Source: Nocardiopsis sp. FR4 (lineage in GTDB: Bacteria > Actinomycetota > Actinomycetes > Streptosporangiales > Streptosporangiaceae). From it: a stretch of DNA of 64,000 nucleotides. Shown one piece after another: positions 30,574-58,099 of this stretch. A program made the position numbers and the translations under genes. Within the stretch, counting starts at the first letter, position 1; each line of letters opens with the position of its first letter. Under the pieces are notes generated by a model. It did not search any database. It saw nothing but the letters and a program-made list of their open reading frames with translations, and was not told the origin of the DNA. The stretch covers positions 1 to 64,000 of the forward strand of contig NZ_VWVV01000036.1 of assembly GCF_009830945.1 (NCBI RefSeq), written 5' to 3'.

Positions 30574-30579
30574 GGACCG

Positions 30580-38827: not shown

Positions 38828-38867
38828 GCGGGCCGATACGCCTCTTCGGTCTGCCGTCTGACCTGCT

Positions 38868-38921
38868 GGTCCTGTACCTGTGGCGAGTTCGGGCGCCCGA
38901 ACTCGCCACAGGTACAGGACC
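38868..38921. terminator. Perfect 54-bp palindrome, probable bidirectional terminator
   Basis: Bases 38868-38894 and 38895-38921 are exact reverse complements (27+27) with no spacer. The centre is GGGCGCCC. It sits between the convergent permease and GT1 genes (41 and 27 bases from their stops). The size and perfection exceed every other hairpin in the window. Confidence 0.75.
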
Positions 38922-38947
38922 GCGGTGCAGGGGGCGGGTTCGGCGGC

Positions 38948-41526: not shown

Positions 41527-44055
41527 TCAGACGGTGGCCACCGGCAGGGTCAGCCGCAGTGTCAGCCCGCCGCCGGGCGTGGTCTCCGGGCGCAGCGAGC
41601 CCCCCATGGCCTCCATGAGCCCGCGCGAGAGCGCCAGACCCAGGCCGAGACCGGTCTCGTTGTCGGTGTCACCGAGCCTCTGGAAGGGGACGAACATGCG
41701 CTCTCGCTCATGCTCGGGCACGCCGGGGCCGTGGTCGGCCACCAGCAGCTCCACCTCGTCCCCCGTCCAGGACGCGGCCACCGTCGGCGGCCGGTCCGGC
41801 GGGCTGAAGCGCAGGGCGTTGCCCAGCACGTTGGCCAGCACCCGGTCCAGCAGCCCCGGATCGGCCGCGACCAGCGGCAGCTCCTCGGGGACGCGCACCC
41901 GCACCGCGCGCCCCGCCGGACCGAGCTCGTCCAGGGCGGCGAACACCGACTCGCGCGGCGACAGGTCCCGGACGGTCACCCCCAGCACTCCCGCCTGGAG
42001 GCGGCTCATGTCCAGCAGGTCCGTCACCAGGCGCGAGAGCCGGTCCAGGGACTCGTCCGCGGTGGCCAGGAACTCGGCCTGGTCCTCCTCGCTGAAGCGC
42101 ACCTCCCGGCTGCGCAGGCTGGTCACCGACGCCTTGGCCGAGGCCAGGGGGGCGCGCAGGTCGTGGCTGACCGCCGCCAGCAGCGCGGTGCGCATCCGGT
42201 CCGCCTCGGCCAGCGGAACGGCGGCCGCCGCCTCCTGGGCCAGCCGCTGCTGGCGCAGCGCGACGGCGGCCTGCGCGGCGAAGGCCCCGATGATGCGCCG
42301 CTCGGCCGCACGGGGCCGGTGCCCGTACAGCACCAGGGTCAGTTCCTCGTCCACCGGAACGTCGACGTCGGCCCCGCCCGGGGCCCCGCACGGGCGGTCC
42401 CCGACCGAGGCGACCGCCTCCCACGCCCGGGGATCCTGGCGGTGGTCCGGGCGGGCCGAGGCGCCGGGCCTGCGCTCCAGCAGCGCCACCGACTCCAGGG
42501 AGAAGGTCTCGCGCAGCCGCTCCAGCAGTGCCTCCAGGGGCCGCGAGCCGCGCAGCACGCTTCCGGCCACCGCGGCCAGCGTCTGGGCCTCGGCGCTGGC
42601 CCGGGCGGCCTCGCGGGTGCGCCGCGCCGCCTGGTCGACCACGACGCTGACCGCCACGGCCACCACCACGAACACCACCAGGGCGAGTGTGTCCCGGGAG
42701 TGGGTGACCGTCAGGGTCAGGTAGGGCTCGGTGAAGTACAGGTTGAGCAGCACGAAACCGCCCAGGGCCGCCACCAGCGCGGGCCACAGCCCGCCCACCA
42801 GCGCTGTCACCGTCACCGTCGCGAACACCAGCAGGATCCCGTTGCTGAGGTAGGCCTCGCCCCGGGGCATCCACGGGAGGGCCAGGAGCAGCAGGGCGAT
42901 GAGCGCCAGGGCGTGCCCCGCGGCCTCCCGGCGCCCCGAGACCGCGCCGGTCCGGGGGCGGCGCGGCCGGGCGCAGGACTCCTCGTGGGTGACCAGGTGG
43001 ACGTCGATGGGGCCCGACCGGGCCATGGTGGCCACCCCCACCCCCGGCCGCAGCAGGTTGGCGATCCGGCCGCGCCTGCTGGCGCCCACCACCAGCTGGG
43101 TGGCGTCCACGGCCCGGGCGAAGTCGATCAGGGCGCTGGGCACGTCCTCGCCCAGGACCTGGTGGTAGGTGCCGCCCAGGTCCTCCACCAGCATCCGCTG
43201 CCGGGCCAGCTGGGCGGGGTCGGCGCCCACCGGACCGTCGCCCAGGGACACGTGCACGGCCAGCAGGTCGGCGCCCCTGTCGCGCCCGGCGATGCGGGCG
43301 GCCCGGCGGATGAGCGCCTCCCCGCCGGGGCCGCCGGTCAGGGCCACGACCACGCGTTCACGGGCCTGCCAGGCCGGTGCCGCGGCGTGCGCGCCCCGGT
43401 GCCGTTCCAGTTCCTCGTCCACCCGCCCGGCCAGCCACAGCAGCGCCAGTTCGCGCAGGGCGGTCAGGGCGCCGATCCGGAAGTGGTGGCCCAGCGCGGC
43501 GTCGATCTGGTCCACGCCGTAGACGTTGCCGTGCGCCAGCCTGCGCCGCAGCGCCTCGGGGGTCATGTCCACCAGTTCGATCTGGTCGGCCTCGCGGACC
43601 CAGGCGTCGGGCACGGTCTCGTGCTGGCGGACGCCGGTGATCTTCTCCACGACGTCGTTGAGCGACTCCAGGTGCTGGACGTTGAGCGTGGACAGCACCG
43701 TTACGCCCGCGTCCAGCAGGACCTGGATGTCCTGCCAGCGCTTGGCGTTGCGCGCCCCGGGGGCGTTGGTGTGCGCGAGTTCGTCCACGAGGACCACCTG
43801 GGGGCGGCGCGCGAGCACGGCGTCCAGGTCCATCTCCTCGAACCGCTCGCCGTGGGAGGTGAACACCGCGCGCGGCACGGTCTCCAGGTCGTCGATCATC
43901 GCCTCCGTGAGCGTGCGGCCGTGGCTCTCCACGAAGCCGATCACCACGTCGGCACCGCGGTCGCGGCGCCGGTGCGCCTCGTCCAGCATCCGGTAGGTCT
44001 TGCCCACCCCCGGAGCCGCGCCCAGGTAGACGCGCAGGTGGCCGCGTGCGGTCAT
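41527..44055 (-). CDS. kdpD: Sensor histidine kinase KdpD
   Basis: 842 residues in full KdpD order. N-terminal KdpD domain with Walker A GAAPGVGKT (residues 12-20) and Walker B VVLVDELAHTN. Usp-like domain (about 230-365, VVALTGGPGGEALIRRAARI). Four short helices (DUF4118, about 385-490), GAF-like region, HisKA with His631 in SHDLRAPLAS, and HATPase (NVLGNALRFS, ADHGPGVPEHE, TGLGLGLALSRGL). It senses K+ limitation or turgor. ATG behind GAGGGAGGGG. Unusually, it is divergent from kdpE rather than overlapping it, and no kdpFABC genes are present here. Confidence 0.94.
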   Translation of the reverse strand: MTARGHLRVYLGAAPGVGKTYRMLDEAHRRRDRGADVVIGFVESHGRTLTEAMIDDLETVPRAVFTSHGERFEEMDLDAVLARRPQVVLVDELAHTNAPGARNAKRWQDIQVLLDAGVTVLSTLNVQHLESLNDVVEKITGVRQHETVPDAWVREADQIELVDMTPEALRRRLAHGNVYGVDQIDAALGHHFRIGALTALRELALLWLAGRVDEELERHRGAHAAAPAWQARERVVVALTGGPGGEALIRRAARIAGRDRGADLLAVHVSLGDGPVGADPAQLARQRMLVEDLGGTYHQVLGEDVPSALIDFARAVDATQLVVGASRRGRIANLLRPGVGVATMARSGPIDVHLVTHEESCARPRRPRTGAVSGRREAAGHALALIALLLLALPWMPRGEAYLSNGILLVFATVTVTALVGGLWPALVAALGGFVLLNLYFTEPYLTLTVTHSRDTLALVVFVVVAVAVSVVVDQAARRTREAARASAEAQTLAAVAGSVLRGSRPLEALLERLRETFSLESVALLERRPGASARPDHRQDPRAWEAVASVGDRPCGAPGGADVDVPVDEELTLVLYGHRPRAAERRIIGAFAAQAAVALRQQRLAQEAAAAVPLAEADRMRTALLAAVSHDLRAPLASAKASVTSLRSREVRFSEEDQAEFLATADESLDRLSRLVTDLLDMSRLQAGVLGVTVRDLSPRESVFAALDELGPAGRAVRVRVPEELPLVAADPGLLDRVLANVLGNALRFSPPDRPPTVAASWTGDEVELLVADHGPGVPEHERERMFVPFQRLGDTDNETGLGLGLALSRGLMEAMGGSLRPETTPGGGLTLRLTLPVATV

Positions 44056-44112
44056 GGACCCCTCCCTCTCTCCGCTTCCATTCTCACCCGGACGGTTCAG
44101 GGCGTTTCACCT

Positions 44113-44161
44113 GCTAACAGGACGCTAATTACCACACTGCCGGTGCTAAGGGGGCGTTAGC
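44113..44161. promoter_or_regulatory. Helically spaced GCTAA repeats in the kdpD/kdpE divergent region
   Basis: GCTAA occurs at 44113-44117, 44124-44128 and 44145-44149, with starts 11 and 21 bases apart (one and two helical turns). An inverted TTAGC is at 44157-44161. OmpR-type regulators such as KdpE bind direct repeats with this spacing, so this is a candidate autoregulatory site. Confidence 0.5.
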
Positions 44162-44304
44162 GTGCTGGCCCGCCCCGGCCCTTCTCCTCCAGAGTCGGTC
44201 CGGTGCCAGCGCCGCCGGGGGGCGGTCCCCGCACGCCCCTACCATCGTTTCCGCGGGACCCACCCTGAGTTGGGGGGACCCGGACAGGCGAAGAACGGAT
44301 CACC

Positions 44305-45066
44305 ATGGACACCGACACCAGCACGGACACCGGCGGGGGCAGATCCCCCGCAGTCCTGGTCGTCGACGACGACCCCCGCATCCGCAGGACGCTGGAGGTG
44401 AACCTGCGCGTGCGCGGCTACACCTCCTACCTGGCCGACACCGGCGAGCACGCACTGCGGCTGGTGGCCCGGCACCACCCCGACCTGCTCCTGCTCGACC
44501 TGGGGCTGCCCGGGATGGACGGCCTGGAGGTCCTGCGGGGGCTACGCGGATGGACCGACGTGCCGGTGGTCGTGCTCTCGGGGCGCGACACCGAGGCGAT
44601 GAAGGTGGAGGCGCTGGACCTGGGCGCCGACGACTACGTGATCAAGCCCTTCGGCATGGACGAGCTGTTCGCCCGGGTGCGCGCGGCCATGCGCCGCTCG
44701 GTGGTGCCCGAGTACGAGCCGCCCGTGGCCACCGGTCACTTCACGATCGACCTGGCCGCCAAACAGGTCCTCAAGGACGGCGCCCCGGTGCGCCTGACCC
44801 CGCGCCAGTGGCACATCGTGGAGGTGCTGGCCCGCAACCCCGACCGCCTGGTCACCCACAAGCACCTGCTCAACGAGGTGTGGGGGCCCGCGTACGGGCG
44901 CGAGACCAACTACCTGCGGGTGTTCATGACCAAGATCCGCCAGCGGCTGGAACCGGACCCGCCGCGCCCGCGCTACTTCCTCACCGAGCCGGGCCTGGGC
45001 TACCGGTTCCGGCCGGACGGGGGCGCGGGGTCCCCGGAGCGCCGCGACGGGACCGGTGGCGCGTGA
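44305..45066 (+). CDS. kdpE: Response regulator KdpE
   Basis: 253-residue OmpR/PhoB-family regulator. Receiver domain with acidic pair VVDDDP (20-24), phospho-acceptor Asp65 in LLLLDLGLPGMDG and Lys114 in YVIKPFGMDELFARV. C-terminal winged helix with LTPRQWHIVEVLARNPDRLV and NYLRVFMTKIRQRLEPDPPR, the KdpE-like end. It is the partner of the divergent KdpD. The stop overlaps the trkH start (GTGA), so K+ sensing and the Trk-type channel gene are translationally coupled. Confidence 0.92.
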   Translation: MDTDTSTDTGGGRSPAVLVVDDDPRIRRTLEVNLRVRGYTSYLADTGEHALRLVARHHPDLLLLDLGLPGMDGLEVLRGLRGWTDVPVVVLSGRDTEAMKVEALDLGADDYVIKPFGMDELFARVRAAMRRSVVPEYEPPVATGHFTIDLAAKQVLKDGAPVRLTPRQWHIVEVLARNPDRLVTHKHLLNEVWGPAYGRETNYLRVFMTKIRQRLEPDPPRPRYFLTEPGLGYRFRPDGGAGSPERRDGTGGA

Positions 45067-46493
45067 GCCACGGCACCAGGGAACCCTCGGCGGCCTCGCG
45101 CGCCTCGCGCGTGCTGGTGCGGGTCAACGGCGCGCTCGACCACAGGCTGCGCGACCTGGCCCGGTGGGTCAAGCCGCCCCAGCTGACGGTGCTGGCCTTC
45201 GCCGCCCTGGTCCTGGTCGGCACGGCCGCGCTGTCGCTGCCCGCCGCCACGGAGAGCGGGGAGCGGGCCTCCCTCCCCGACGCCCTGTTCACCGCCACGT
45301 CGGCGGCCAGCGTGACGGGTCTGGTGGTGGAGGACACCGCGGGCTACTGGTCGGCCTTCGGCGAGCTGGTGATCCTGGCCCTGATCCAGGTCGGCGGGTT
45401 CGGCATCATGGCCCTGGCCACCGTGCTGACCCTGGTGGTGGGCCGCCAGCTGGGGCTGCGCATGGCGCTGCGCACCGGCTCGGAGGCCAAGGTGGTCACG
45501 CTGGGCGAGGTGCGCCAGCTGGTCAAGGGCATCCTGGCGGTGACGCTGGTCTTCGAGGCGGTCCTGGCCGTGGTGCTGACGCTGCGCTGGTGGCTGGCGT
45601 ACGACCTGGCGCTGGGCCGGGCCTGCTACACGGGGGTCTTCCACGCCGTCTCGGCCTTCAACAACGCCGGTTTCTCGCTCTACGCCGACAGCATGACGGG
45701 GTTCGCCAGGGACCCGTGGATCACGGTTCCCATCGCCGTGGCGGTGGTCGCGGGAGGGCTGGGTTTTCCCATCTGGGTGGAGTTGTGGCGCTTCACCCGG
45801 CGGCGCCGGGAGGCGCGCCACTGGTCCCTGCACGCCAAGATCACCCTGGTGATGACGGGTGTCCTGCTGGTGATCGGCTTCGCGGCCTTCCTCCTGCTGG
45901 AGTGGGCCAACCCGGCGACGATGGGTCCCCTGACGCCGCGCGACAAGGTCCTCACCGCCTTCTTCCAGGCGGTGATGCCGCGCACGGCGGGCTTCAACAG
46001 CCTCGACTTCGGCGCGATGCACACCCAGACCCTGCTGGTCACCGACATGCTCATGTTCGTCGGCGGGGGCAGCGCGGGCACCGCCGGGGGCATCAAGGTG
46101 ACGACCTTCGCCGTGCTGGCCTTCGTGGTCTACGCCAACGTGAGAGGGGAGCCGACGGTGCACGTGGGGGGCCGCCGCCTGGCCGACGGCACCGCCTCCC
46201 AGGCGACCACGGTGGTGCTTCTGGCCCTGGGGCTGGTGCTGGCGGCGACGCTGACCCTGATGACCGTCACACCCTTCACCCTGGACCAGATCCTGTTCGA
46301 GACGGTCTCGGCCTTCGGCACGGTCGGCCTGTCCACCGGCATCACCGGGGACCTGCCGCCGCTCGGTGAGATGGTCGTCGTCTTCCTCATGTTCGTGGGG
46401 CGGATCGGGCCGATCACCCTGGCCTCGGCCCTGGCGCTGCGCCGCCGGGCGCGCCTGTACGAGCTGCCCCAGGAGCGGCCGATCGTCGGCTGA
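45063..46493 (+). CDS. trkH: TrkH/KtrB family potassium transporter subunit
   Basis: 476 residues, a four-fold repeated membrane-pore-membrane protein of the SKT superfamily. Selectivity-filter glycines are visible in TSAASVTGLVVED, AFNNAGFSLY, PRTAGFNSLDF and SAFGTVGLSTGI. GGSAGTAGGIKVTTFAVL precedes the last repeat. A cytoplasmic regulator (TrkA/KtrA) is needed in known systems but none is nearby. GTG start overlaps kdpE. The 46494-46691 gap after it holds no convincing gene. Confidence 0.92.
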   Translation: MSHGTREPSAASRASRVLVRVNGALDHRLRDLARWVKPPQLTVLAFAALVLVGTAALSLPAATESGERASLPDALFTATSAASVTGLVVEDTAGYWSAFGELVILALIQVGGFGIMALATVLTLVVGRQLGLRMALRTGSEAKVVTLGEVRQLVKGILAVTLVFEAVLAVVLTLRWWLAYDLALGRACYTGVFHAVSAFNNAGFSLYADSMTGFARDPWITVPIAVAVVAGGLGFPIWVELWRFTRRRREARHWSLHAKITLVMTGVLLVIGFAAFLLLEWANPATMGPLTPRDKVLTAFFQAVMPRTAGFNSLDFGAMHTQTLLVTDMLMFVGGGSAGTAGGIKVTTFAVLAFVVYANVRGEPTVHVGGRRLADGTASQATTVVLLALGLVLAATLTLMTVTPFTLDQILFETVSAFGTVGLSTGITGDLPPLGEMVVVFLMFVGRIGPITLASALALRRRARLYELPQERPIVG

Positions 46494-46691: not shown

Positions 46692-47630
46692 TCAGGAGCG
46701 CGGTGCCTCAGCGGGACCGCAGTCCGCGCCGCAGGTCGCGGTCCGGTGCTCCGGGCGGCGCCGCTCCAGCAGGACGCTGTCCCGCCAGCGGCCGTCCAGG
46801 CACGCGATGCTCTCGCGCACGCCCACGGTGCGGTACCCCGCCGAGCGGTGCAGGGCCAGGGCGGCCTTGTTCTCGGGGAGGACCGAGGCCTGCAGGGTCC
46901 ACAGCCCGGCGGCGTCGGCCTCGGTGACCTGCCGGTGGAGCAGTGCCTTGCCCGTGCCCCGGCCCCGGGCGTCCTCGGCCACGTAGACCGAGGTCTCGGC
47001 GGCGCCGGAGTAGGCGGCCAGGGAGGAGACCGGGGCGGCGGCGGCCCAACCCACCAGGCGCCCGCTGCGCTCGGCGACCCAGCGGTGACCGGGCAGCCAC
47101 CGCTCGAACAGGGCGTCCTCCTCGGGCGCCTCGGTCTCGAAGGCGGCGTCGCCGGTGGCGATTCCCTGGGCGTAGATCTCGCGGACCGTCGGCAGATCCG
47201 CCTCGGTCATGGCGCGTACGTCCACGTCGGCGGGCAGGTCGGCGGGGCAGCACGGGCGCGAGCCGAGCAGTCCCATGACGGCGTCGGCGGCGTGCGGCAG
47301 GCCGGTGCAGCAGGCCGGATTGACCGCGACCCGGGTGGAGGTGCCCACGCGGGTCAGGGTCACGAAGCCCACCTCGGTCAGTTTGCGCAGGTGGTGGGAG
47401 GCGGTCGGCTGGCTGATGCCCACCGCCGCGGCGAGTTCGCCCACGCTGATCGTGCCCGGGTACGCGGCGACGGTGTGCAGCAGGCGTACGCGCATCGGCT
47501 CGGCCAGGCAGGCGAACCAGGCGGCGTAGGTCTGGGCGTCACTGGCGGGGAGGGTCTCGGGTGCGGGGCTCGTTACGGTCACCCCCCCAGTATCGGTGAC
47601 GACATCGACCAAAGTCGATGTTGCATCCAT
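46692..47630 (-). CDS. ArsR repressor fused to a GNAT N-acetyltransferase (ArsN-like)
   Basis: 312 residues in two domains. Residues about 30-105 are an ArsR winged helix (ISVGELAAAVGISQPTASHH). Residues about 137-290 are a GNAT acetyltransferase of the ArsN/phosphinothricin-acetyltransferase type (VRAMTEADLPTVREIYAQGI, ETSVYVAEDARGRGTGKALL). Vicinal cysteine pairs Cys107-Cys108 and Cys127-Cys128 in the linker are likely As(III) ligands. ArsN1 enzymes acetylate the organoarsenical antibiotic arsinothricin. The ATG 47630 has no ribosome site but a TATAGA just upstream suggests a nearly leaderless mRNA. GTG 47582 is an alternative start. Confidence 0.88.
   Translation of the reverse strand: MDATSTLVDVVTDTGGVTVTSPAPETLPASDAQTYAAWFACLAEPMRVRLLHTVAAYPGTISVGELAAAVGISQPTASHHLRKLTEVGFVTLTRVGTSTRVAVNPACCTGLPHAADAVMGLLGSRPCCPADLPADVDVRAMTEADLPTVREIYAQGIATGDAAFETEAPEEDALFERWLPGHRWVAERSGRLVGWAAAAPVSSLAAYSGAAETSVYVAEDARGRGTGKALLHRQVTEADAAGLWTLQASVLPENKAALALHRSAGYRTVGVRESIACLDGRWRDSVLLERRRPEHRTATCGADCGPAEAPRS
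47602..47621. promoter_or_regulatory. Inverted repeat at the arsR-arsN start (operator candidate)
   Basis: ACATCGAC (47602-47609) and GTCGATGT (47614-47621) around CAAA. It lies within the first codons if ATG 47630 is used, or in the leader if GTG 47582 is used, and about 65 bases from the divergent flavoprotein start. Likely site for the ArsR domain. Confidence 0.6.
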
Positions 47631-47686
47631 TGATGGAAGTCTATATCTTCTTCTTGCATAGATGTCAGTCGATGAAAGGATGCGTC

Positions 47687-49129
47687 ATGGTCGAGGAGTA
47701 CCCGGTCGTGGTGATCGGAGCCGGTCCGGTGGGCCTGGCCGCGGCGGCGGAGCTGGTCGAGCGGGGGCTGCCGGTCCTGGTGCTGGAGAAGGGCGGAAGC
47801 GCCGGAGCGGCGGTGCGCGAGTGGGGGCACGTGCGCCTGTTCTCGATGTGGCGCGACCTGGTCGACCCCGCCGCGGAGAAGCTGCTCACCGGCACCGGAT
47901 GGCAGCGCCCGGACGACGAGGTCTACCCCACCGGCGGGGAGTGGGCCGAGCTCTACCTGTCCCCGCTCGCCGGGGCACTGGGAGAGCGGGTGCGCTTCGG
48001 CGCCGAGGTCACCGGTGTCAGCCGCCGGGGCCGGGACCGGGTCGTGGACGCCGAACGGGCCGAACAGCCCTTCACCGTGCGGCTGCGCACCGACGCGGGT
48101 GAGGAGCGCCTGCTGGCCCGTGCGGTGATCGACGCCTCCGGGACCTGGGGCTCCCCCAACCCGGTGGGCGGCGACGGCCTGCCCGCGCTGGGGGAGGAGG
48201 CCGCCGCCGACCGGATCTCCCACCGGATCCCCGATCTGGCCGACCCGGCCGTGAGGGCCCGTTACGCGGGCCGCACCACGGCCGTGGTGGGCCGGGGCCA
48301 CTCCGCGCTGACCGCCCTGGTCTCCCTGGCCGCGCTGGCCGGGGAGGAGCCGGACACCCGCGCTCTGTGGGTGCTGCGCCGGGGGGAGGTCGGCGACGCC
48401 TTCGGAGGAGGGGACGCAGACCAGCTGCCCGCCCGGGGAGCCCTGGGCCAGCGGGCGAAGGCGGCCGTGGCGGCCGGGCACATCCGGGTGGTCGCGGGCT
48501 TCCGGACCGCCGAGGTGCGCACCGAGGACGGCGGCCTGGTCCTGGCGGACGAGAACGGTCGGGAACTGGAGCCGGTGGACGAGGTCGTCGCCCTGACCGG
48601 GTTCCGCCCCGACCTGGCTCCGCTGTCGGAGATCCGCCTGGGACTGGACGCCACGCTTCAGGCGCCGGTGGAGCTGGCTCCGCTCATCGACCCCAACGTG
48701 CACTCCTGCGGCACCGTCTACCCGCACGGGGCCCGGGAGCTGGCCCATCCGGAGGAGGGGTTCTTCCTGGCCGGGATGAAGTCCTACGGGCGCGCGCCCA
48801 CCTTCCTGGCGCTGACCGGGTTCGAGCAGGTGCGCAGCATCGCCGCCCACCTCGCGGGCGACCACGAGGGCGCGGCCCGGGTGGAGCTGACCCTGCCCGA
48901 GACCGGGGTGTGCAGCGGAGGCGGCCTGACCGAGGAGGTCGAGGTCCAGGACGAGGGCGGCTGCTGCGGTGCTCCGGAGCCCTCGGGCGCCGCTGACACC
49001 ACGGAGCCGGGCGGGCGGGAGCGCGAGGCCGCGGTGACCGTGGCGCGGAGCGGGCCGGACGCCGGAAGCTGCTGCTCGGCCCCCGTCCCGCAGGCGGTCG
49101 AGGCGCCCGCTCCGGTCACGACGGCGTGA
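47687..49129 (+). CDS. FAD-dependent oxidoreductase with paired C-terminal cysteines
   Basis: 480 residues. N-terminal FAD motif VVVIGAGPVGLAAAAELVER, then WGHVRLFSMWRDLVDPAAEK, NAD(P)-binding TAVVGRGHSALTALVSLAAL and the final FAD motif DEVVALTGFRPD. This is the flavin-monooxygenase/thioredoxin-reductase-like fold. The last 70 residues are a poorly structured tail with CCGAPEP and SCCSAP, plus single cysteines at GVCSGG and HSCGT: typical vicinal thiols for trivalent arsenic. Directly divergent from arsR-arsN and followed by an overlapping MFS gene. ATG 47687 has AAAGGA 7 bases upstream. It could oxidise or reduce an arsenical. The exact reaction is unknown. Confidence 0.85.
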   Translation: MVEEYPVVVIGAGPVGLAAAAELVERGLPVLVLEKGGSAGAAVREWGHVRLFSMWRDLVDPAAEKLLTGTGWQRPDDEVYPTGGEWAELYLSPLAGALGERVRFGAEVTGVSRRGRDRVVDAERAEQPFTVRLRTDAGEERLLARAVIDASGTWGSPNPVGGDGLPALGEEAAADRISHRIPDLADPAVRARYAGRTTAVVGRGHSALTALVSLAALAGEEPDTRALWVLRRGEVGDAFGGGDADQLPARGALGQRAKAAVAAGHIRVVAGFRTAEVRTEDGGLVLADENGRELEPVDEVVALTGFRPDLAPLSEIRLGLDATLQAPVELAPLIDPNVHSCGTVYPHGARELAHPEEGFFLAGMKSYGRAPTFLALTGFEQVRSIAAHLAGDHEGAARVELTLPETGVCSGGGLTEEVEVQDEGGCCGAPEPSGAADTTEPGGREREAAVTVARSGPDAGSCCSAPVPQAVEAPAPVTTA

Positions 49130-50358
49130 GCTCCCCGACCACGGGTGGGCCCGCGCGGGTGCTGGGCGCCGCGCGGGCCCACCGCGGGCTCCTGGCCCTG
49201 TCCGTCACCGTGACCACGAGCTACGGGGTGCTGTTCTACGCCTTCCCGGTGCTGGCCCCCGCCATCACCGCCGACACCGGGTGGTCGCTGGCGGCCCTCA
49301 CCGCCTGCTTCTCGGCCGCACAGGTCGTGGCGGGGCTCACGGGGATCGCGGTGGGGCGGTGGCTGCACCGCCGCGGGCCCCGACCGGCCATGACGGCCGC
49401 GGCCGTTCTCGCGGTCCCGGCCCTGGCCGCGGTCGCGTCGGCGCGCGACCTCTGGCTGTTCGGCGCGGCCTGGCTGGTGGCCGGGACGGCGATGGCCGGG
49501 TTGTTCTACCCGCCCGCCTTCGCCGCGCTGACCCGCTGGTACGACGCCGGGCGGGTGCGCGCGCTGACCGTGCTGACCCTGGTCGCCGGGCTGGCCAGCA
49601 CCGTCTTCGCCCCGCTCACCGCGGTCCTGGAGGCCTCGCTGGGTTGGCGCGGCGCCTACCTGGCCCTGGGCGGGGTGCTCGTCGCGGTGGTGGTTCCCCT
49701 GCACGCCTTCGCCCTGCCCCGGGCCTGGGACGGAACGGCCACGGCGAGGGGGCCCGGCGGTACCGGGCACGTGCGCGCCGTGGTCGGGTCGGCGGCGTTC
49801 TGGGCGCTGGCCGCGGCGCTGACCGCGGGCTCCCTCACGGTGTACGCCGTCGTGATCAACCTGGTCCCGCTCCTGCAGGAGCGGGGGTTCGACACCACGA
49901 CGGCGGCCTGGGCCCTGGGCGCGGGCGGTGTGGGCCAGGTCCTGGGCCGCCTGGTCTACGGGCCCCTGGAACGTCGGACGGCCCCGGTGCCGCGCGCCCT
50001 GGCGGTCCTGGGCGCCTGCTCGGTGACCACGCTGCTCCTGGCCCTGGTCCCCGGACCGCTCGGGTTGGTCATGGCCGTCGCGGTGCTGGCGGGAACGGCG
50101 CGCGGAGTGCTCACCCTCCTCCAGGCCACGGCCGTCGTGGACTGGTGGGGCACACGGGACCACGCCACCCTCAACGGCCTCCTGCACGTGCCCGTCATGG
50201 TGGCCGTCGCCCTGGCCCCCTGGGCGGGGGCCGCGCTGGCCGGACCGGTGGGCGGCTACCCGGCCGCGTTCACTCTGCTGGGCGTCCTGGCGGGGGTCGG
50301 CGCCCTGGCGGTCCTGGCCAGCCGTCCGAGCCCGGTCCCCGCCCCAGCCCCTTCCTGA
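49126..50358 (+). CDS. MFS transporter in the arsenic island
   Basis: 410 residues with 12 predicted helices, MFS fold. VTVTTSYGVLFYAFPVLAPA in helix 1 and GRWLHRRGPRPAM in the loop 2-3 motif are seen. The first half resembles the oxalate/formate-like MFS group to which several arsenic-linked carriers belong. GTG start overlaps the flavoprotein stop by 4 bases, so the two products probably work together: modify the compound, then export it. Substrate inferred only from context. Confidence 0.85.
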   Translation: MSSPTTGGPARVLGAARAHRGLLALSVTVTTSYGVLFYAFPVLAPAITADTGWSLAALTACFSAAQVVAGLTGIAVGRWLHRRGPRPAMTAAAVLAVPALAAVASARDLWLFGAAWLVAGTAMAGLFYPPAFAALTRWYDAGRVRALTVLTLVAGLASTVFAPLTAVLEASLGWRGAYLALGGVLVAVVVPLHAFALPRAWDGTATARGPGGTGHVRAVVGSAAFWALAAALTAGSLTVYAVVINLVPLLQERGFDTTTAAWALGAGGVGQVLGRLVYGPLERRTAPVPRALAVLGACSVTTLLLALVPGPLGLVMAVAVLAGTARGVLTLLQATAVVDWWGTRDHATLNGLLHVPVMVAVALAPWAGAALAGPVGGYPAAFTLLGVLAGVGALAVLASRPSPVPAPAPS

Positions 50359-50427
50359 AGAACCCTTCCCCGAGAACCGGTCCCCCGCCCGCGCCGGCGG
50401 CGGGACCCCATCCCCTGAGGAGAGAAC

Positions 50428-51483
50428 GTGGAACACGTGTCCCTGGCCGTCATCGGAGCCGGACAGGCCGGGCTGGCCACCGCACGGGCCGCCCGTCGGC
50501 GCGGCCTCACCCCCCTGGTGCTGGAGGCCGCCGACAGCGCGGGCGGCTCCTGGCCGCACTACTACGACAGCCTGACCCTGTTCTCCCCGGCCCGTTTCTC
50601 CGCCCTGCCCGGGCACCCCCTGCCCGGGGACCCCGACCGCTACCCGCGGCGCGATGAGATCGTGGCCTACCTGCGCGACTACACCGAACACCTGGACGCC
50701 GACCTGCGCTACGGCCAGCGCGTGGAGCGGGTCGAACCCCGGGGGGACGCCCTCGTGCTGACCACCGCCGACGGCTCCCGGTTCCGGGCTTCGGCGGTGG
50801 TCGCGGCCACCGGCGGCTTCTCCCGGCCGCACCGTCCGGCCCTGCCGGGCCTGGACGCCTTTCCCGGGACCGTGCTGCACTCGGCCGGCTACCGGCGCCC
50901 CGACGCCTTCGCCGGACAGCGCGTGGTGGTGGTCGGCGGCGGCAACTCCGGCGTGCAGATCGCAGCCGACCTGGCCTCCGTGGCCCGGGTCAGCCTGGCC
51001 ACCCGAGGGCCCGTGGCCTGGGTGAACCAGCGCCCCCTCGGCCGGGACCTGCACTGGTGGTTCACCCGCAGCGGCCTGGACACGGCACCGCTGCGCCGGG
51101 TGTGGGAACGGGGGGCCACCCTGGTCATCGACGACGGCCGGTACCGGGCGGCCTTCGCCACGGGCAACCCCGACCGGCGGGAGATGTTCTCCGAACTGCG
51201 GGGGGAGAAGGTCACCTGGGCCGACGGCACGGTGGAGCGGGTGGACACCCTCCTGCTGGCCACCGGCTACCGGCCCGCCCTGGACTACCTGGCCCCCACC
51301 GGGGCGCTGGACGCCCGGGGCCGACCGCTGCACCGCGGCGGGATCTCCACCACCGTCCCCGGCCTGGGGTACGTGGGGTTGGAGTTCCAGCGCAGCTTCT
51401 CCTCGGCCACCCTGCGCGGGGTCGGCCGTGACGCGCGCCGGGTCCTTCGCGGCCTCAGCCCCCGGCTGCGAGGGAGTCGCTGA
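50428..51483 (+). CDS. Flavin-containing monooxygenase, ArsO-like (first copy)
   Basis: 351 residues with FAD motif AVIGAGQAGLATARAARRRG, the FMO-type SWPHYYDSLTLFSPARFSAL, the NADPH motif VVVVGGGNSGVQIAADLASV and the closing VDTLLLATGYRPALDYL. Similar in plan to the opposite-strand gene at 51455-52528, so the island holds two ArsO-like enzymes. GTG at 50428 has GAGGAGAGAAC in front. Its 3' end overlaps the 3' end of the convergent copy by 29 bases. Confidence 0.87.
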   Translation: MEHVSLAVIGAGQAGLATARAARRRGLTPLVLEAADSAGGSWPHYYDSLTLFSPARFSALPGHPLPGDPDRYPRRDEIVAYLRDYTEHLDADLRYGQRVERVEPRGDALVLTTADGSRFRASAVVAATGGFSRPHRPALPGLDAFPGTVLHSAGYRRPDAFAGQRVVVVGGGNSGVQIAADLASVARVSLATRGPVAWVNQRPLGRDLHWWFTRSGLDTAPLRRVWERGATLVIDDGRYRAAFATGNPDRREMFSELRGEKVTWADGTVERVDTLLLATGYRPALDYLAPTGALDARGRPLHRGGISTTVPGLGYVGLEFQRSFSSATLRGVGRDARRVLRGLSPRLRGSR

Positions 51484-52528
51484 TCCGGGCGACGGTGGTC
51501 TTGGCGGTGCGTCCGGCGCCGATGAGGGTGGCCGAGGCGGGTCCGGTCCAGTCGCCGTAGCCGAGCAGGAACAGGCGCGGTTCGGCCGCGGCCCGGGTGC
51601 CCTCCACCGGGATCCGGCCCCGGCCGTCCGTCAGGCCCAGCGGGGCCAGGTGGTCCAGTGCCGGGGCGAAGCCCGTGCACCACACGATCGCGTCGCAGTC
51701 CAGGGAGCTGCCGTCCGACCAGACCACCCCGGTGGGGGTGAGGCGGTCGAACATCGGCTCGGCCTTGAGCGCGCCGCGCTCGCGAGCCTCGCGCACGGGC
51801 GGCACCACCACGATGTCGCCCAGGTCGCCGACCCCCGGAGGCAGCGGACCGCCGTCGCGTGCGGCGTTCTGGTGCCGGGTGGCGATGGCGAACAGGGCGC
51901 GCCCGTCCACCTCGTCGGGCAGGAACCGGGGCGGGCGCAGGGTGGCCCAGGTGGTCTGGGCGACCCGGGAGAGCTCGGCGAGGATCTGCGCCGCGGAGTT
52001 GCCGCCGCCCACGACCACGACCCGCTGCCCGGCGAACTCCTCGGGGGCACGGTAGTCGACGGTGTGCAGCTGGCGTCCCCGGTACAGGTCGCGGCCCGGG
52101 AGGTCGGGCACGCGCGGTGCCCGCCAGGTGCCGGTGGCGCTGATGACGTACCGGGCCCGCCAGGAGCCCTCCCGCGCGTTCACCCGCAGGGCGCCGCGGA
52201 CCCGTTCCACGCCCTCCACGTGGACCGGGCGGTGCACGGGCAGGCCGTAGCGGCGCTCGTACTCGCCCAGGTACCAGGTGACGTGCCGCGCGCTCGGGTA
52301 GGCCTGGCCCTCCTCCTCGGGCATCCACCAGCCCGGCAGCATGCTGTGCCCGGCGGGGGAGAAGAGCCGCAGCGAGTCCCAGTACTCGTTCCACGCCCCG
52401 CCCGGCTCGGTGCGGTCGTCCAGGATCACGAACTCCGCCCCGGTCCGCCGCAGGAAGTAGCCCGCGGCCAGACCTGCCTGTCCGCCGCCGACGACCGCGA
52501 CGTCGACGGTGTGCTCCCGGTGCTGCAT
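51455..52528 (-). CDS. arsO: Flavin-containing monooxygenase, ArsO-like (second copy)
   Basis: 357 residues: FAD motif VAVVGGGQAGLAAGYFLRRT, AWNEYWDSLRLFSPAGHSML, NADPH motif VVVVGGGNSAAQILAELSRV, and AIVWCTGFAPALDHL. It ends with a long SDSLAAGG tail. In actinomycete ars operons (for example plasmid pHZ227 arsRBOCT) arsO encodes such a flavin monooxygenase next to acr3, as here. ATG 52528 with GAAAGGAAC upstream. Third gene of the arsR-acr3-arsO unit. Role in arsenic tolerance is known genetically, but its chemistry is not. Confidence 0.86.
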   Translation of the reverse strand: MQHREHTVDVAVVGGGQAGLAAGYFLRRTGAEFVILDDRTEPGGAWNEYWDSLRLFSPAGHSMLPGWWMPEEEGQAYPSARHVTWYLGEYERRYGLPVHRPVHVEGVERVRGALRVNAREGSWRARYVISATGTWRAPRVPDLPGRDLYRGRQLHTVDYRAPEEFAGQRVVVVGGGNSAAQILAELSRVAQTTWATLRPPRFLPDEVDGRALFAIATRHQNAARDGGPLPPGVGDLGDIVVVPPVREARERGALKAEPMFDRLTPTGVVWSDGSSLDCDAIVWCTGFAPALDHLAPLGLTDGRGRIPVEGTRAAAEPRLFLLGYGDWTGPASATLIGAGRTAKTTVARISDSLAAGG

Positions 52529-52593: not shown

Positions 52594-53691
52594 CTAGGGG
52601 GTGGGGGCGGTGCTGGGGGTGCGGGCCGTGAAGCGCTTGCGCCAGGCCAGCGACACGTACACCAGGCCCACCAGCACGGGCACCTCGATCAGCGGTCCCA
52701 CGACCCCGGCCAGCGCCTGCCCCGAGGCGACGCCGAACGTGGCGATGGCCACCGCGATGGCCAGTTCGAAGTTGTTGCCCGCCGCGGTGAAGGCCAGCGT
52801 CGTGGTGCGGTCGTAGCCCAGCCCGATCGCCTTGCCCAGCACGAAGGTGCCGAACCACATGATCACGAAGTAGGCCAGCAGGGGCAGGGCGATGCGCACC
52901 ACGTCCAGCGGCTGGCTGGTGATGGTGCCGCCCTGGAGGGCGAACAGCAGCACGATGGTGAACAGCAGCCCGTACAGCGCCCACGGGCCGATCCGCGGCA
53001 GGAAGACGGACTCGTAGCGCTCCCGGCCCATGCGCCGCTCGCCGAGCGTGCGGGTGAGGAAGCCCGCGGCCAGCGGGACGCCCAGGAAGATGACCACGTT
53101 CAGCGCGATCAGCCACGGCGACACGTCCAGGCCGCCGGTGTCCAGGCCCAGCCACCCGGGCAGCAGGTCCAGGTAGAACCAGCCCAGCACGCCGAAGGCC
53201 AGCACCTGGAACACCGAGTTCAGCGCCACGAGCACCGCGGCGGCCTCGCGGTCGCCGCAGGCCAGGTCGTTCCAGATGATCACCATGGCGATGCACCGGG
53301 CCAGGCCCACGATGATCAGACCGGTGCGGTACTCGGGCAGGTCGGCCAGGAAGATCCAGGCCAGGGCGAACATCACCGCCGGGCCCACGACCCAGTTGAC
53401 CACCAGGGAGGAGACGAGCAGCCGCCGGTCGCGGGTGACGGTGTCCAGGCGGTCGTAGCGGACCTTGGCCAGCACCGGGTACATCATCACCAGCAGGCCC
53501 AGGGCGATGGGCAGCGAGATCCCGCCGACCTCCACCGCGGCCAGGGCCCCGTCCAGGCCCGGGACCAGGCGGCCCAGGCCCAGCCCCACGGCCATGGCGA
53601 GCAGGATCCACACCGCCAGGAACCGGTCCAGGGTGGACAGCTTGGCCACGACCGAGGGGGTGGCGGGGGAGGTGTCGTTGGTGGCCGTCAT
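52594..53691 (-). CDS. acr3: Arsenite efflux permease Acr3
   Basis: 365 residues, ten helices, ArsB/Acr3 (BART) superfamily. The conserved membrane cysteine required for As(III) transport sits in VGLARCIAMVIIWNDLACGD, and the conserved glutamate in AAGNNFELAIAVAIATFG. PLIEVPVLVGLVYVSLAWRK ends the protein. It exports arsenite with proton exchange. The start overlaps the arsR stop (ATGA), so repressor and pump are made from one message. Confidence 0.94.
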   Translation of the reverse strand: MTATNDTSPATPSVVAKLSTLDRFLAVWILLAMAVGLGLGRLVPGLDGALAAVEVGGISLPIALGLLVMMYPVLAKVRYDRLDTVTRDRRLLVSSLVVNWVVGPAVMFALAWIFLADLPEYRTGLIIVGLARCIAMVIIWNDLACGDREAAAVLVALNSVFQVLAFGVLGWFYLDLLPGWLGLDTGGLDVSPWLIALNVVIFLGVPLAAGFLTRTLGERRMGRERYESVFLPRIGPWALYGLLFTIVLLFALQGGTITSQPLDVVRIALPLLAYFVIMWFGTFVLGKAIGLGYDRTTTLAFTAAGNNFELAIAVAIATFGVASGQALAGVVGPLIEVPVLVGLVYVSLAWRKRFTARTPSTAPTP

Positions 53692-53996
53692 CAGCAGGGC
53701 CTCCTGGTGGTGCCGCTCTCGCGGGCGGTGCGGGCGAGTTCGGACAGCGCCCCGGACAGGGACTCCAGCGCCTCGGGGCGCAGGCGGTAGTAGGTGAAGC
53801 GGCCGCACGGCTCGGTCTCGACCACGCCCGTCTCGCGCAGGACGCGCAGGTGGTTGGACAGGTTGGTCTGGCGCGCGCCGGTCTCCCGGATCAGGTGGGT
53901 CGTGCACAGGGTCTCGCGGGCCAGCAGGGTCACGATCCGCAGCCGGAGCGGGTCGGACACCGCCTTGATCACATCAGGATCAACTGACATCAGCAT
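53691..53996 (-). CDS. arsR: ArsR family arsenic-responsive repressor
   Basis: 101-residue winged-helix repressor. ARETLCTTHLIRETGARQTN and LSNHLRVLRETGVVETEPCG carry cysteines of the actinobacterial As(III)-binding type (Cys in ETLCTTH and EPCGRF), and YYRLRPEALESL forms the wing end. It is divergent from arsC. Its own ATG (53994-53996) is in an ATCAGC/GCTGAT operator candidate. ATG 53990 is a possible shorter start. It regulates the acr3-arsO unit and probably arsC. Confidence 0.92.
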   Translation of the reverse strand: MLMSVDPDVIKAVSDPLRLRIVTLLARETLCTTHLIRETGARQTNLSNHLRVLRETGVVETEPCGRFTYYRLRPEALESLSGALSELARTARESGTTRRPC

Positions 53997-54069: not shown

Positions 54070-54480
54070 ATGACCACGTCCGCCACGCCGTCCGTGCTGT
54101 TCGTCTGCGTCCACAACGCCGGAAGGTCGCAGATGGCCGCCGCCTGGCTGTCCCACCTGGCCGGGGACCGCGTCGAGGTGCGCTCGGCCGGGTCCGCGCC
54201 CGCCGACGCCCTCAACCCCGCCGTGGTCGAGGCCATGGCCGAGGTCGGTATCGACATCACCGACCAGAGCCCCAAGATCCTCACCACCGAGGCCGTGGAG
54301 GCCTCCGACGTGTGCGTGACCATGGGCTGCGGCGACACCTGCCCGATCTTCCCCGGCAAGCGCTACCTCGACTGGGCGCTGCCCGACCCCGCCGGACAGG
54401 GCGTGGCGGCGGTGCGCCCCATCCGCGACGAGATCAGGAAGCGCGTCGAGGAGCTTCTCGCGGAGGTCGCCCCCGCGTAG
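54070..54480 (+). CDS. arsC: Arsenate reductase, low-molecular-weight phosphatase type
   Basis: 136 residues. P-loop with nucleophile Cys13 in FVCVHNAGRSQ, and general acid Asp105 in DWALPDP. Cys82, Cys87 and Cys91 (VCVTMGCGDTC) include the redox pair used by thioredoxin-coupled ArsC, though mycothiol-coupled action is also known in actinobacteria. It reduces arsenate to arsenite, which Acr3 then exports. ATG 54070 with AGTAGGAACC upstream. Divergent from arsR. The stop lies inside a terminator hairpin. Confidence 0.93.
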   Translation: MTTSATPSVLFVCVHNAGRSQMAAAWLSHLAGDRVEVRSAGSAPADALNPAVVEAMAEVGIDITDQSPKILTTEAVEASDVCVTMGCGDTCPIFPGKRYLDWALPDPAGQGVAAVRPIRDEIRKRVEELLAEVAPA

Positions 54481-54554: not shown

Positions 54555-55487
54555 CTACTCCCCGTCCTCGGAGTGCCGGGGCAGCACCGCGACGGGGACC
54601 GTGGCGTTGTGCAGCACACCCTGGGTGGCCGAGCCCAGCAGCAGGCCGCGCACGCTGCCCCGCCCGCGCGAGCCCACCACGATCAGATCGGCTCCGGCGC
54701 CCGCCCCGACCAGGGCGTCCACCGGGTTGTCACCGGTGCGCAGGACGCTGACGTCCACGCCCTCGGTGCTCTCGTCGATGACGTCGGCCAGCACGCCCGC
54801 CACCAGTTCCTCGGAGTAGCGGTCCAGCAGCTCGTCCGAGGGCGGAGCCCAGCCGCCGGCGACCATCGTCGCGGTGTCGAAGGGCAGGGGCACCCGCCAG
54901 CTGTGCACCACCACGACCGAGGAACCCGCGTGCTCGGCGGCGCGGTGCAGGGCGAATCGCAGGGCGCGCCGGGAGTCGTCCGATCCGTCCACGCCGACCA
55001 CGATGCGCTCCGGCCCCCTGGGCGGGGCCTCGTTCTGGGGGCGGCGGGGGACCACCACCACGGGGCACACCGCCTTGGCCGCCAGGCGCACCCCCGCCGA
55101 GCCCGCCAGCGCCGAGCGCACCGGCCCCAGCCCGCGCGAGCCCACGACCACCGTGTCCCCGTGGCCGAGCCGGCGCAGCAGCGCCAGCGGTGGCTCCTCC
55201 AGCGCCAGCTCCGTCTCCACCTTCAGGTTCGGCCACAGCGAGCGCACGTGGCCGACGGCCTCCTCCAGGACACCTCGGCCGTGCTGGGACACCTCCTCCG
55301 GCGGAGGGAAGCGGGTGGGACCGGTGTAGACCGACACCACCAGCGGCATGGACAGGGTGTGCACGATGTACAGGGGCAGGTGCGTGCGCTCGGCCTCGGC
55401 GGCCGCCCACTCCAGGGCGGCGCGCGCCGACTCGGAGCCGTCCACGCCCACCGCCACCTTGGGTGTGGGTACCTGTTCGTCGGTCAT
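54555..55487 (-). CDS. Universal stress protein, two tandem Usp domains
   Basis: 310 residues: Usp domain 1 (about 9-148) and 2 (about 160-303). Each begins with a VAVGVDGSESARAALEWA-type segment and ends with an ATP-binding loop (GSRGLGPVRSALAGS and GSRGRGSVRGLLLGS, the G-2x-G-9x-G-S/T pattern). ATP-binding Usps help dormancy and redox stress responses in actinobacteria. It lies downstream of a metal-ATPase gene on the same strand, a pairing also seen in hypoxia regulons. No operon overlap (132 bases apart). Confidence 0.9.
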   Translation of the reverse strand: MTDEQVPTPKVAVGVDGSESARAALEWAAAEAERTHLPLYIVHTLSMPLVVSVYTGPTRFPPPEEVSQHGRGVLEEAVGHVRSLWPNLKVETELALEEPPLALLRRLGHGDTVVVGSRGLGPVRSALAGSAGVRLAAKAVCPVVVVPRRPQNEAPPRGPERIVVGVDGSDDSRRALRFALHRAAEHAGSSVVVVHSWRVPLPFDTATMVAGGWAPPSDELLDRYSEELVAGVLADVIDESTEGVDVSVLRTGDNPVDALVGAGAGADLIVVGSRGRGSVRGLLLGSATQGVLHNATVPVAVLPRHSEDGE

Positions 55488-55619
55488 GTCTTCCTCGCCT
55501 TCGGGCAGCGTCCGCTTCCTCGTCTCCAGGATGACCCGCTCCCGGGTTCCCCAGTGGCTCCACAGGTCCCGGTTCGTCCGCGTCGAAGGTCCCCCGTTCC
55601 GGGCCGGCGACCGCGGGCG

Positions 55620-57527: not shown

Positions 57528-57913
57528 GCTTCGGTGCTCCGTTCCCGGACGGTCGCGGGCGCGACGTTGGCGCGGTGGTGGGCGGGTTCGACCTCCAGGG
57601 CGTGTTCGGCCTGGTAGACGGCGTCGGCCACCAGTTGGCGGGCGTGCTCGTTGGCCAGGCTGTAGTACATCCGGTTGCCCTCGCGGCGGCAGGCCACCAC
57701 CCGCCCCATCCGCAGCTTGGCCAGGTGCTGGGAGACGGAGGGGCCGGGCCTGCCCAGGCGGTCGGCCAGCTCGTTGACGGACAGTTCGCCCCCGCGCAGG
57801 GCGAGGATGATCCGGACCCGGGTGGCGTCGGCCAGCAGGGTGAGGATCTCCACGGCGTATTCGACGTAGGGGCTGTTCTCGTCGAGACCGCATCTCTTGC
57901 TATCTGCGTTCAT
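57524..57913 (-). CDS. SmtB/ArsR family metal-responsive repressor
   Basis: 129-residue winged-helix repressor: LADATRVRIILALRGGELSV, NELADRLGRPGPSVSQHLAK, then MYYSLANEHARQLVADAVYQ and AEHALEVEPAHH. The histidines and glutamates of the last helix fit an alpha-5 type site for Zn, Ni or Co. An early Cys (KRCGLDE) may add a ligand. It is first in the operon with the P1B ATPase. Its ATG (57911-57913) lies in the spacer of a perfect 10-bp palindrome, so autoregulation is expected. Confidence 0.92.
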   Translation of the reverse strand: MNADSKRCGLDENSPYVEYAVEILTLLADATRVRIILALRGGELSVNELADRLGRPGPSVSQHLAKLRMGRVVACRREGNRMYYSLANEHARQLVADAVYQAEHALEVEPAHHRANVAPATVRERSTEA

Positions 57914-57923
57914 ACGCAGATAG
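57900..57923. promoter_or_regulatory. SmtB/ArsR operator palindrome over the start codon
   Basis: CTATCTGCGT (57900-57909), TCAT, ACGCAGATAG (57914-57923). A perfect 10-bp inverted repeat with the start codon in its centre, the geometry of SmtB-family operators. Confidence 0.82.
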
Positions 57924-58099
57924 TAGATCCTGAGAGGGGGCGGGTGAACCGGGGCCCGGGGTTCCCTTCGCCGTCGGCCCCGGATTCCGGAGGCCCGAAG
58001 CGGGAAGTGACTGTACGCGATCGGGCGAATACGCGATTCGCGGGCGGGGTAGAGGGTCTGGGGCAACGCCCGCCACACGGGCAACGGAGGGGGACACAG

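Follow-up and report, generated by a model that had tools for sequence, protein, structure and literature searches.

A separately regulated flavoprotein module in an arsenic island of Nocardiopsis sp. FR4 and its possible role in organoarsenical detoxification

Among described systems for handling organic arsenicals, ArsV and ArsW are close counterparts of the genes considered here. ArsV is a flavin monooxygenase that oxidizes methylarsenite (MAs(III)), and ArsW acts as the methylarsenate exporter (PMC10080717; see also PMC9144182, PMC11719878). We compare this and other published systems with four adjoining genes in an arsenic island of the soil actinomycete Nocardiopsis sp. FR4. These genes lie in a 64,000-nt stretch of DNA (hereafter the window) from a genome of 6.12 Mb, and they encode a fusion of an ArsR-type sensor to a GNAT acetyltransferase domain, a flavoprotein with a C-terminal cysteine tail that we call FLV, an MFS carrier, and an ArsO-like flavin monooxygenase that we call FMO2 (Table 1).

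The likeness to ArsV/ArsW, which is drawn from descriptions only, lies in the presence of a flavoenzyme and an exporter in ars operons and, on the reading favored below, in MAs(III) as a substrate. The title of the ArsV paper, which also names antimonite as a substrate, describes the system as “widely present in soil bacteria,” and this would fit the reach of FLV. Unlike that pair, the locus in the window adds the ArsR-GNAT fusion, a private operator, and FMO2. Other proteins with documented links to organic arsenicals are ArsK, which exports MAs(III) (PMC12607644), and the ArsH of Paracoccus, which is reported to reduce organoarsenicals (PMC9137774). The sources disagree on ArsO and ArsN: these are listed together with ArsV as giving organic-arsenical resistance in one paper (PMC9144182), whereas a review considers their functions “poorly understood” (PMC12607644).

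An additional point of comparison is the ars1 operon of TnARS1 from Bacillus sp. MB24 (AY780525), an arsenite-inducible cluster with the order arsR1-orf3-orf4-orf5, whose products are an ArsR, a glutamate-synthase-like protein, a flavoprotein monooxygenase, and a GNAT protein (PMC6920998). In B. subtilis without arsB, ars1 alone left the maximum tolerated and minimum inhibitory concentrations (MTC/MIC) for As(III) unchanged at 2/4 mM and raised those for As(V) from 2/4 to 6/8 mM. Together with ars2, it gave As(III) values of 14/16 mM versus 4/6 mM for ars2 alone, and lower As(V) values of 10/20 mM versus 20/30 mM. The abstract reports that arsenite resistance was slightly raised by ars1, whose function the authors left open (PMC6920998). 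As in the window, an ArsR, a flavoprotein monooxygenase, and a GNAT are gathered together, and even the “glutamate synthase” label has a parallel, in that a rhizobial FLV homolog (P0246) carries this misname too. Compared by description only, ars1 differs in lacking an MFS gene and in having an unfused ArsR. We regard it as probably a relative of the module described here.

The first-pass annotation of the window had supposed that this four-part combination was undescribed, a claim overtaken by ars1 (published in 2019) and by ArsV/ArsW, both already in print. Among the titles and abstracts of the literature matches listed, with most subscription papers outside the scope, we found neither an ArsR-ArsN fusion with the operator reported below nor the four-part set presented as an organoarsenical system, and passages from PMC8297445, PMC13163355, and PMC8552651 contain nothing on the module.

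Our principal finding is that these genes belong to a real, recurring, and separately regulated module with FLV as its core. Gene calls and matches to Pfam and NCBIfam profiles confirmed all four genes between positions 46692 and 51483. The CC-tailed flavoprotein, the overlapping MFS carrier, and the ArsO-like monooxygenase were found on the + strand just as the first-pass annotation had them; the MFS gene starts 4 bp before the end of the FLV gene, and FMO2 begins 69 bp past the MFS gene. The fusion gene runs in the opposite direction. Its true start is probably the GTG at 47582, the position with which the initial methionines of Nocardiopsis relatives line up, and this start would place the operator outside the fusion gene. 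The association of the four genes is more than chance, and the neighbors of FLV recur in many genera and three phyla in varying combinations.

Conservation of the neighborhood was examined in 80 FLV loci, which are the best of 583 confirmed and therefore lean to close relatives; 68 of these are flanked on either side by no less than 5.9 kb, and loci with short flanks stay in the count of 80. Genes were called by best BLAST hits to proteins of the window and a few locus proteins, a procedure that misses distant or frame-broken neighbors. An arsR gene stands opposite FLV in 71 of the 80 loci (64 of the 68), and this regulator is an ArsR-GNAT fusion in 36 and an unfused CgArsR-type ArsR in 35. 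An MFS gene lies downstream from FLV in 38 loci, and FMO2 lies within 6 kb in 24. ArsI is encoded directly downstream from FLV in 13 loci (a representative scores 203.8 bits in NF041414, cut-off 116), and ArsM occurs in five (a 166-aa piece scores 219.7 bits in NF008823, cut-off 263). A CmtR-like regulator (“ArsRtail”) was dropped as a part of the module, being present in few loci only.

The 13 loci with ArsI behind FLV are all from Streptomyces (L014, L018, L022, L033, L034, L037, L046, L048, L051, L063, L071, L081, and L083), and none carries the fusion opposite FLV, so that the two features were never seen together in this arrangement (0/80); one fused locus (L066) has ArsI elsewhere in its stretch. 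Six Streptomyces loci have the gene order FLV-ArsI-MFS. On the FLV tree, in which the closest relatives of the window copy are from Nocardiopsis, the fusion requires four changes, an MFS gene behind FLV at least 18, and ArsI behind FLV 11. The latter two pairings have therefore been made or broken repeatedly.

A second set comprised 296 genomes sampled evenly from the class, 88 of which have FLV at an E-value of 1e-60. Of the 60 fusion hits, the 53 spanning both domains were kept, and 37 of these lie within 500 bp of FLV, all of them divergent; 13 of the 53 have no FLV within 3 kb. Among 36 MFS hits, 20 have FLV at a distance of 3 kb or less and 19 have FMO2 at 500 bp or less, and 16 of 38 FMO2 hits are within 3 kb of FLV. 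Association at the level of genomes gave p-values of 1e-14 for the MFS, 9e-17 for FMO2, and 2e-22 for the fusion in tests that ignore phylogeny. In a set of 72,556 plasmid records, FLV was found on 122 at an E-value of 1e-60 and on 124 at 1e-40. No viral occurrence could be confirmed in one scan of viral contigs that used patterns taken from the window protein.

Separate regulation is most evident from the promoter shared by the fusion and FLV genes. In fused loci this promoter carries up to three copies of the palindrome ATCGA-N6-TCGAT, with spacings that are most often 26 bp and then 33–34 bp. We counted sites in 35 fused loci (the window and 34 named loci with ArsR no more than 900 bp from FLV; two fused loci were excluded) and found 72 in 6,568 bp of promoter compared with three in 767,104 bp outside. 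The strict operator is present in 29 of these 35 loci and a relaxed form in all 35. The palindrome was rejected as an element of loci with the unfused CgArsR-type regulator, only one of 28 of which contains it, and it therefore belongs to the fusion. The motif differs by one base per half-site from an ArsR core, ATCAA-N6-TTGAT (PMC9137774).

Within the 6.1-Mb genome, the relaxed pattern ATMGAYNNNNRTCKAT has two matches only, at 47604 and 47658, and the strict pattern has one further site (contig C28, position 76215). The whole-genome scan did not find the relaxed pattern at the Acr3 and ArsC promoters of the window. Because the relaxed pattern is confined to this promoter, the ArsR-GNAT protein looks like a regulator dedicated to it, and the proposal of the first-pass annotation that this arm of the island has its own sensor is borne out by the private operator. 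One of the three outside sites (L079, 12283–12298) lies 14 bp from a matched arsM start, as if methylation might share the regulator in that locus.

The N-terminal part of the fusion is an ArsR/SmtB helix-turn-helix domain (HTH_20, 4e-13; NF033788, 58.8 bits, cut-off 55). A cysteine in a WFxCL motif is found in 35 of 37 fused ArsR domains, and 35 of 37 also have two CC pairs, the exceptions being different proteins. One pair follows the recognition-helix S[HF]H by 29 residues in all 37 and the other by 48 or 49 residues in 35. A C-terminal vicinal pair, Cys101-102, is described for MAs(III)-responsive ArsR (PMC6514093), and the CC pairs of the fused domains, compared with SpArsR by description only, are candidate counterparts.

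FLV receives only generic FAD/NAD(P) matches in Pfam and NCBIfam. A profile search against the PDB returned 7a76, labeled thioredoxin reductase, at 1e-14 over 54 residues only, as well as the flavin monooxygenases 4usr and 4c5o and the YpdA-family Bdr 7a7b. Because FLV has no CxxC, its assignment to thioredoxin reductase, ArsT, or YpdA was rejected. Genes for TrxB are present separately in some loci, and their products branch far from ArsO and FMO2 in a tree without FLV. The window copy has cysteines at positions 341, 409, 426–427, and 462–463; Cys 341, 409, 426, and 427 show no variation among 23 homologs, and the pair at 462–463 is extra to this copy. The GVC...CC tail is kept in 80 of 81 FLV proteins (the window and the 80 named loci). 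Among plasmid homologs from Pseudomonadota, Bacillota, and Actinomycetota, all 19 have TGVC with further cysteines and 17 have CC, and all 120 homologs listed for an Ensifer FLV have CC within their last 75 residues. None of these 120 bears the name ArsV.

The one FLV with a deviating tail, from Nocardia xishanensis (L084), lacks the CC pair and keeps one cysteine. It faces a fusion without the second CC pair, whose GNAT domain also has an unusual contact site. This is a hint that FLV tail and sensor cysteines may decay together.

Class-B flavin monooxygenases typically share the fingerprint [FY]xGxxxHxxx[FYW]. This occurs in 22 of 23 FMO2 proteins and 21 of 24 ArsO proteins, and 16 of the 23 FMO2 proteins have no cysteine at all. 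ArsO is the nearest named family of FMO2, and most members of both carry the fingerprint. FMO2 nevertheless falls short of the ArsO cut-off (Table 1), and in a tree with 23 FMO2 and 24 ArsO proteins each family forms one clade, with SH-aLRT support of 82 for FMO2 and 95 for ArsO. Both are found in the same loci. For the MFS carrier, the best named family is ArsK, whose cut-off is likewise not reached.

The carrier and FMO2 also occur as a pair at a distance from FLV. Twelve of the 36 MFS hits in the sampled genomes pair with FMO2 away from FLV, two of them with FLV at 10 kb or less. We inspected 11 stretches (L126–L136) in which such a pair is separated from any full FLV by over 3 kb: an ArsR-type gene is present in nine and ArsC or an aquaporin in seven, and in two (L134 and L135) no other ars gene was detected in the stretch. 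Because MFS-FMO2 pairs exist apart from FLV, the block in the window seems to join two modules, one of sensor and FLV and another of FMO2 and MFS. Two loci are noted for their arrangement. One FMO2-MFS pair (L129, genome G059) has FLV fragments about 5 kb off, and in L141 (genome G250) FMO2 and the MFS gene are convergent rather than co-directional, with the fusion about 2.5 kb from FLV.

Relatives of the module on plasmids extend to other phyla. We compared 21 annotated plasmid regions that were chosen for spread, two of them via a search for Bacillus operons, so the following counts are not frequencies; a 22nd region, which carries no annotation, was left aside. FLV has an MFS gene at a distance of about 3 kb or less in 12 of the 21, a GNAT or fusion gene lies near FLV in 11, other ars genes are present in 16, and ArsH and an FMO2-like gene are present in three each. 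An annotated ArsN1a lies near FLV in five regions (Paenibacillus, Pseudomonas, Niallia, Bacillus, and Cytobacillus); those of Bacillus and Cytobacillus were verified to be above the cut-off, and those of Pseudomonas nitroreducens and Niallia are immediately upstream of FLV. Three Bacillota monooxygenases near FLV are 46%–48% identical to FMO2 and 33%–34% to ArsO. The one from Cytobacillus firmus is 48% identical to FMO2 of the window versus 34% to the ArsO of the window, and the FMO2 relative of Paenibacillus is without the class-B fingerprint. Plasmid p1 of C. firmus has the order MarR-FMO2-FLV-small ORF-MFS-ArsN1a (ArsN1a 219 bits, cut-off 170).

A close counterpart to the FLV-MFS arrangement is that on plasmid p-3 of Ensifer adhaerens E-60 (Alphaproteobacteria). 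It has the order GNAT-ArsR-FLV-ArsK, an FLV that is 48.8% identical, and the same 4-bp overlap between the FLV and carrier genes. It differs in having an unfused ArsR and no FMO2 in the stretch, and its ArsK, which at 513 bits is above the cut-off of 400, is only 28% identical to the MFS of the window. In Bosea the order is ArsR-FLV-MFS-ArsH. Against the ArsK model, MFS neighbors of FLV in Pseudomonadota reach 200–513 bits; the neighbors in Priestia, Paenibacillus, and C. firmus match neither this model nor, at 1e-5, the window MFS. Since unrelated MFS families stand beside FLV, the exporter slot has been filled more than once.

The recurrence of ArsI, ArsM, ArsH, ArsN1, and ArsK as company indicates organic, mostly trivalent, arsenicals. 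On balance we lean toward the view that the module is a self-contained, separately regulated detoxification operon for trivalent organoarsenicals, either methylarsenite or related RAs(III) compounds. From its architecture, conservation, and operator we infer the following chemistry. The ArsR half of the fusion would occupy the two or three conserved promoter palindromes and thereby repress its own gene and the FLV-MFS-FMO2 unit, until a trivalent arsenical bound at its vicinal cysteine pairs releases it. FLV is predicted to bind the arsenical via Cys 341 and the C-terminal C...CC tail and, with NADPH, FAD, and O2, might oxidize it in the manner of ArsV to the far less toxic pentavalent form. 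The ArsK-like MFS could then export the product or the substrate. FMO2 and the GNAT domain would be accessory and broaden the range of compounds, FMO2 probably as an oxygenase and the GNAT by capping the free amino group on amino-bearing arsenicals.

Several observations weigh against this proposal. The class-B fingerprint is absent from all 81 FLV proteins and all 19 plasmid homologs, so oxygenation by FLV is not assured, and because an ArsH is reported as a reductase (PMC9137774) the FLV reaction might also run in the reductive direction. In some loci FLV stands beside ArsI, and in three of 21 plasmid regions beside ArsH, where a second oxidase would be partly redundant. A profile search of the Nocardiopsis genome found no ArsM or ArsI above cut-off; this leaves the organism without a known route of its own to methylarsenite, and arsenic methylation or demethylation in this genome was rejected as an explanation. 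The carrier is not one conserved family, being ArsK-like in Pseudomonadota and not so in Priestia, Paenibacillus, and C. firmus. Co-occurrence of the four genes, a check proposed by the first-pass annotation, held for pairs and triples, but the complete set with the fusion was found in only 13 of the 80 loci (12 of the 68). Lastly, the As(III) MTC of 14 mM for ars1 with ars2 versus 4 mM for ars2 alone suggests a contribution to inorganic arsenite (PMC6920998).

That value also speaks for an accessory function in inorganic resistance, in which FLV oxidizes or shuttles As(III) or Sb(III) in support of the Acr3 and ArsC of the same island. Arsenite induction of arsR1 and the slight gain in arsenite resistance reported in the abstract point the same way (PMC6920998), as do the antimonite in the title of the ArsV paper and the presence of Acr3, ArsC, or ArsO in 52 of the 80 FLV loci. 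However, the table of the TnARS1 paper shows no effect on As(III) MTC/MIC by ars1 alone (PMC6920998), the module operator is not found at the Acr3 and ArsC promoters of the window, and neither acr3 nor arsC is present in the stretch shown of Rhodococcus opacus pROB01 or in the 11.3-kb stretch of C. firmus p1, both of which carry the module. We judge an inorganic role of this kind to be unlikely.

Similarly doubtful is a cassette against an amino-arsenical antibiotic such as arsinothricin or a relative, whereby the GNAT would acetylate the compound, FLV would oxidize its trivalent form, and the MFS would export it. The adjoining ArsN1a in five of the 21 plasmid regions favors this, as do the 36 of the 80 loci with a sensor-fused GNAT domain and the nine with a separate one; no such GNAT lies near FLV in the other 35, some of which have short flanks. 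ArsN1 is the nearest curated family of the window GNAT. The domain scores 131.5 bits for ArsN1 family A and 71.7 bits for the second model, below the equivalog cut-offs of 170 or 210 bits (NF040503/NF040504), and six relatives are also below that for family A (129.2–148.5 bits).

The ArsN1 of P. putida contacts arsinothricin via Arg75, Ala76, and Arg77 (PMC6465285). At this site, which we placed via three solved acetyltransferases and not via the P. putida sequence itself, the window GNAT has Ser-Ser-Leu, while equivalents of Phe33 and the catalytic Glu are kept. Among the 46 GNATs compared, one of which is the window copy, 41 have Ser-x-Arg; Arg77 is kept in these and lost in the window, and a Nocardiopsis copy from TSRI0078 is among those that retain it. 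In six ArsN1a proteins above cut-off from Actinomycetota genomes, the first residue is Arg in two and Ser in four, and the third is Arg in all six. An argument that Ser in place of Arg75 excludes ArsN1 was dropped for this reason, and the loss of Arg77 alone stands. Acetylation of arsinothricin is thus possible for the GNAT family and doubtful for the window copy. With a residue that contacts the compound missing from this copy, arsinothricin is the less likely substrate at this locus. In all, the organic-arsenical handling that the first-pass annotation had suggested agrees with ArsI, ArsM, and ArsN1a as neighbors, its example of arsinothricin sits poorly with the scores and the Leu at Arg77 of the GNAT, and we consider that earlier interpretation partly supported.

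Rather improbable, in our estimate, is that FLV works as a reductase that converts pentavalent to trivalent organoarsenicals and feeds ArsI or trivalent export. FLV is an NADPH-type flavoprotein with a vicinal-cysteine tail, a combination that we take to be reminiscent of mercuric reductase. ArsI adjoins it in 13 of the 80 loci, and organoarsenical reduction is reported for Paracoccus ArsH (PMC9137774). FLV lacks an active-site CxxC, though, and because no ArsI above cut-off is present in the Nocardiopsis genome, reduction there would yield a more toxic form with no lyase to act on it. Still less probable is a loose assemblage without a joint pathway, brought together only since ars islands collect arsenic genes: the frequent exchange of parts (18 changes for MFS, 11 for ArsI) and the MFS-FMO2 pairs away from FLV and, in L134 and L135, from any other detected ars gene would fit, but the 4-bp gene overlaps in the window and Ensifer, the strict divergent architecture with its private operator, and the co-directional arrangement of three of these enzyme types on one Bacillota plasmid speak against it.

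The proposed operon for trivalent organoarsenicals is adjoined on its right by the standard inorganic set of ArsR, Acr3, ArsO, and ArsC, which the first-pass annotation had named and which profile scores bear out (Table 1); ArsC-specific models match the ArsC gene below their cut-offs. Further right, positions 54555–58243 encode a Cd-type P-ATPase (TIGR01512, 503 bits) and two products judged by eye, one a universal-stress-like protein and the other resembling an ArsR/SmtB regulator. To the left of the module, at 41527–46493, are look-alikes, also named by eye, of a KdpD-type sensor kinase, a response regulator, and a TrkH-type potassium transporter. Positions 30001–40000 are unlike the remaining window in composition, with a strong AT skew of -0.22 to -0.34 and a positive GC skew that is mostly raised.

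Table 1. Positions in the window of the module genes, their operator sites, and the adjoining inorganic arsenic genes
Feature	Position	Strand	Evidence
ArsR-GNAT fusion (sensor and ArsN1-like acetyltransferase)	ORF 46692-47630, likely start GTG 47582	-	HTH and GNAT profiles
Operator palindrome ATCGACCAAAGTCGAT	47604..47619	.	Sole strict match in window, expected 0.04
Second operator ATAGATGTCAGTCGAT	47658..47673	.	13 bp upstream of FLV start
FLV, FAD/NAD(P) flavoprotein, 480 aa	47687..49129	+	Generic FAD/NAD(P) profiles; C-terminal Cys tail
MFS exporter, ArsK-like	49126..50358	+	NF033733 128.8 bits, cut-off 400
FMO2, class-B flavin monooxygenase, sister clade of ArsO	50428..51483	+	ArsO model (NF040505) 254.1 bits, cut-off 425
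ArsO proper (right arm)	51455..52528	-	NF040505 546.3 bits, cut-off 425
Acr3 arsenite exporter (right arm)	52594..53691	-	TIGR00832 439.1 bits, cut-off 282.8
ArsR (right arm)	53691..53996	-	NF033788 76.7 bits, cut-off 55
ArsC, LMW phosphatase-type arsenate reductase (right arm)	54070..54480	+	PF01451 73.5 bits, above cut-off

Organic arsenicals act as natural antibiotics, and it has been noted that ars genes without an assigned function could provide resistance to arsenical natural products still to be discovered (PMC6465285). FLV and FMO2 are candidates for such genes, and in several lineages they occur next to ArsN1a or ArsI. A speculative extension, to which we give little credence at present, is that the module is a trans-phylum resistance cassette directed at a natural antibiotic that contains arsenic and may so far have escaped isolation, and that its parts act in series on one amino-arsenical. 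If this were true, the plasmids of Actinomycetota, Bacillota, and Pseudomonadota that carry the module would map where arsenical antibiotics are made. Because one regulator is paired with, in this genome, one promoter, the ligand should be findable with a reporter, and natural organic arsenic poisons could be tested directly with the module. A known ligand would in turn assign a substrate to FLV-like and ArsO-like enzymes.

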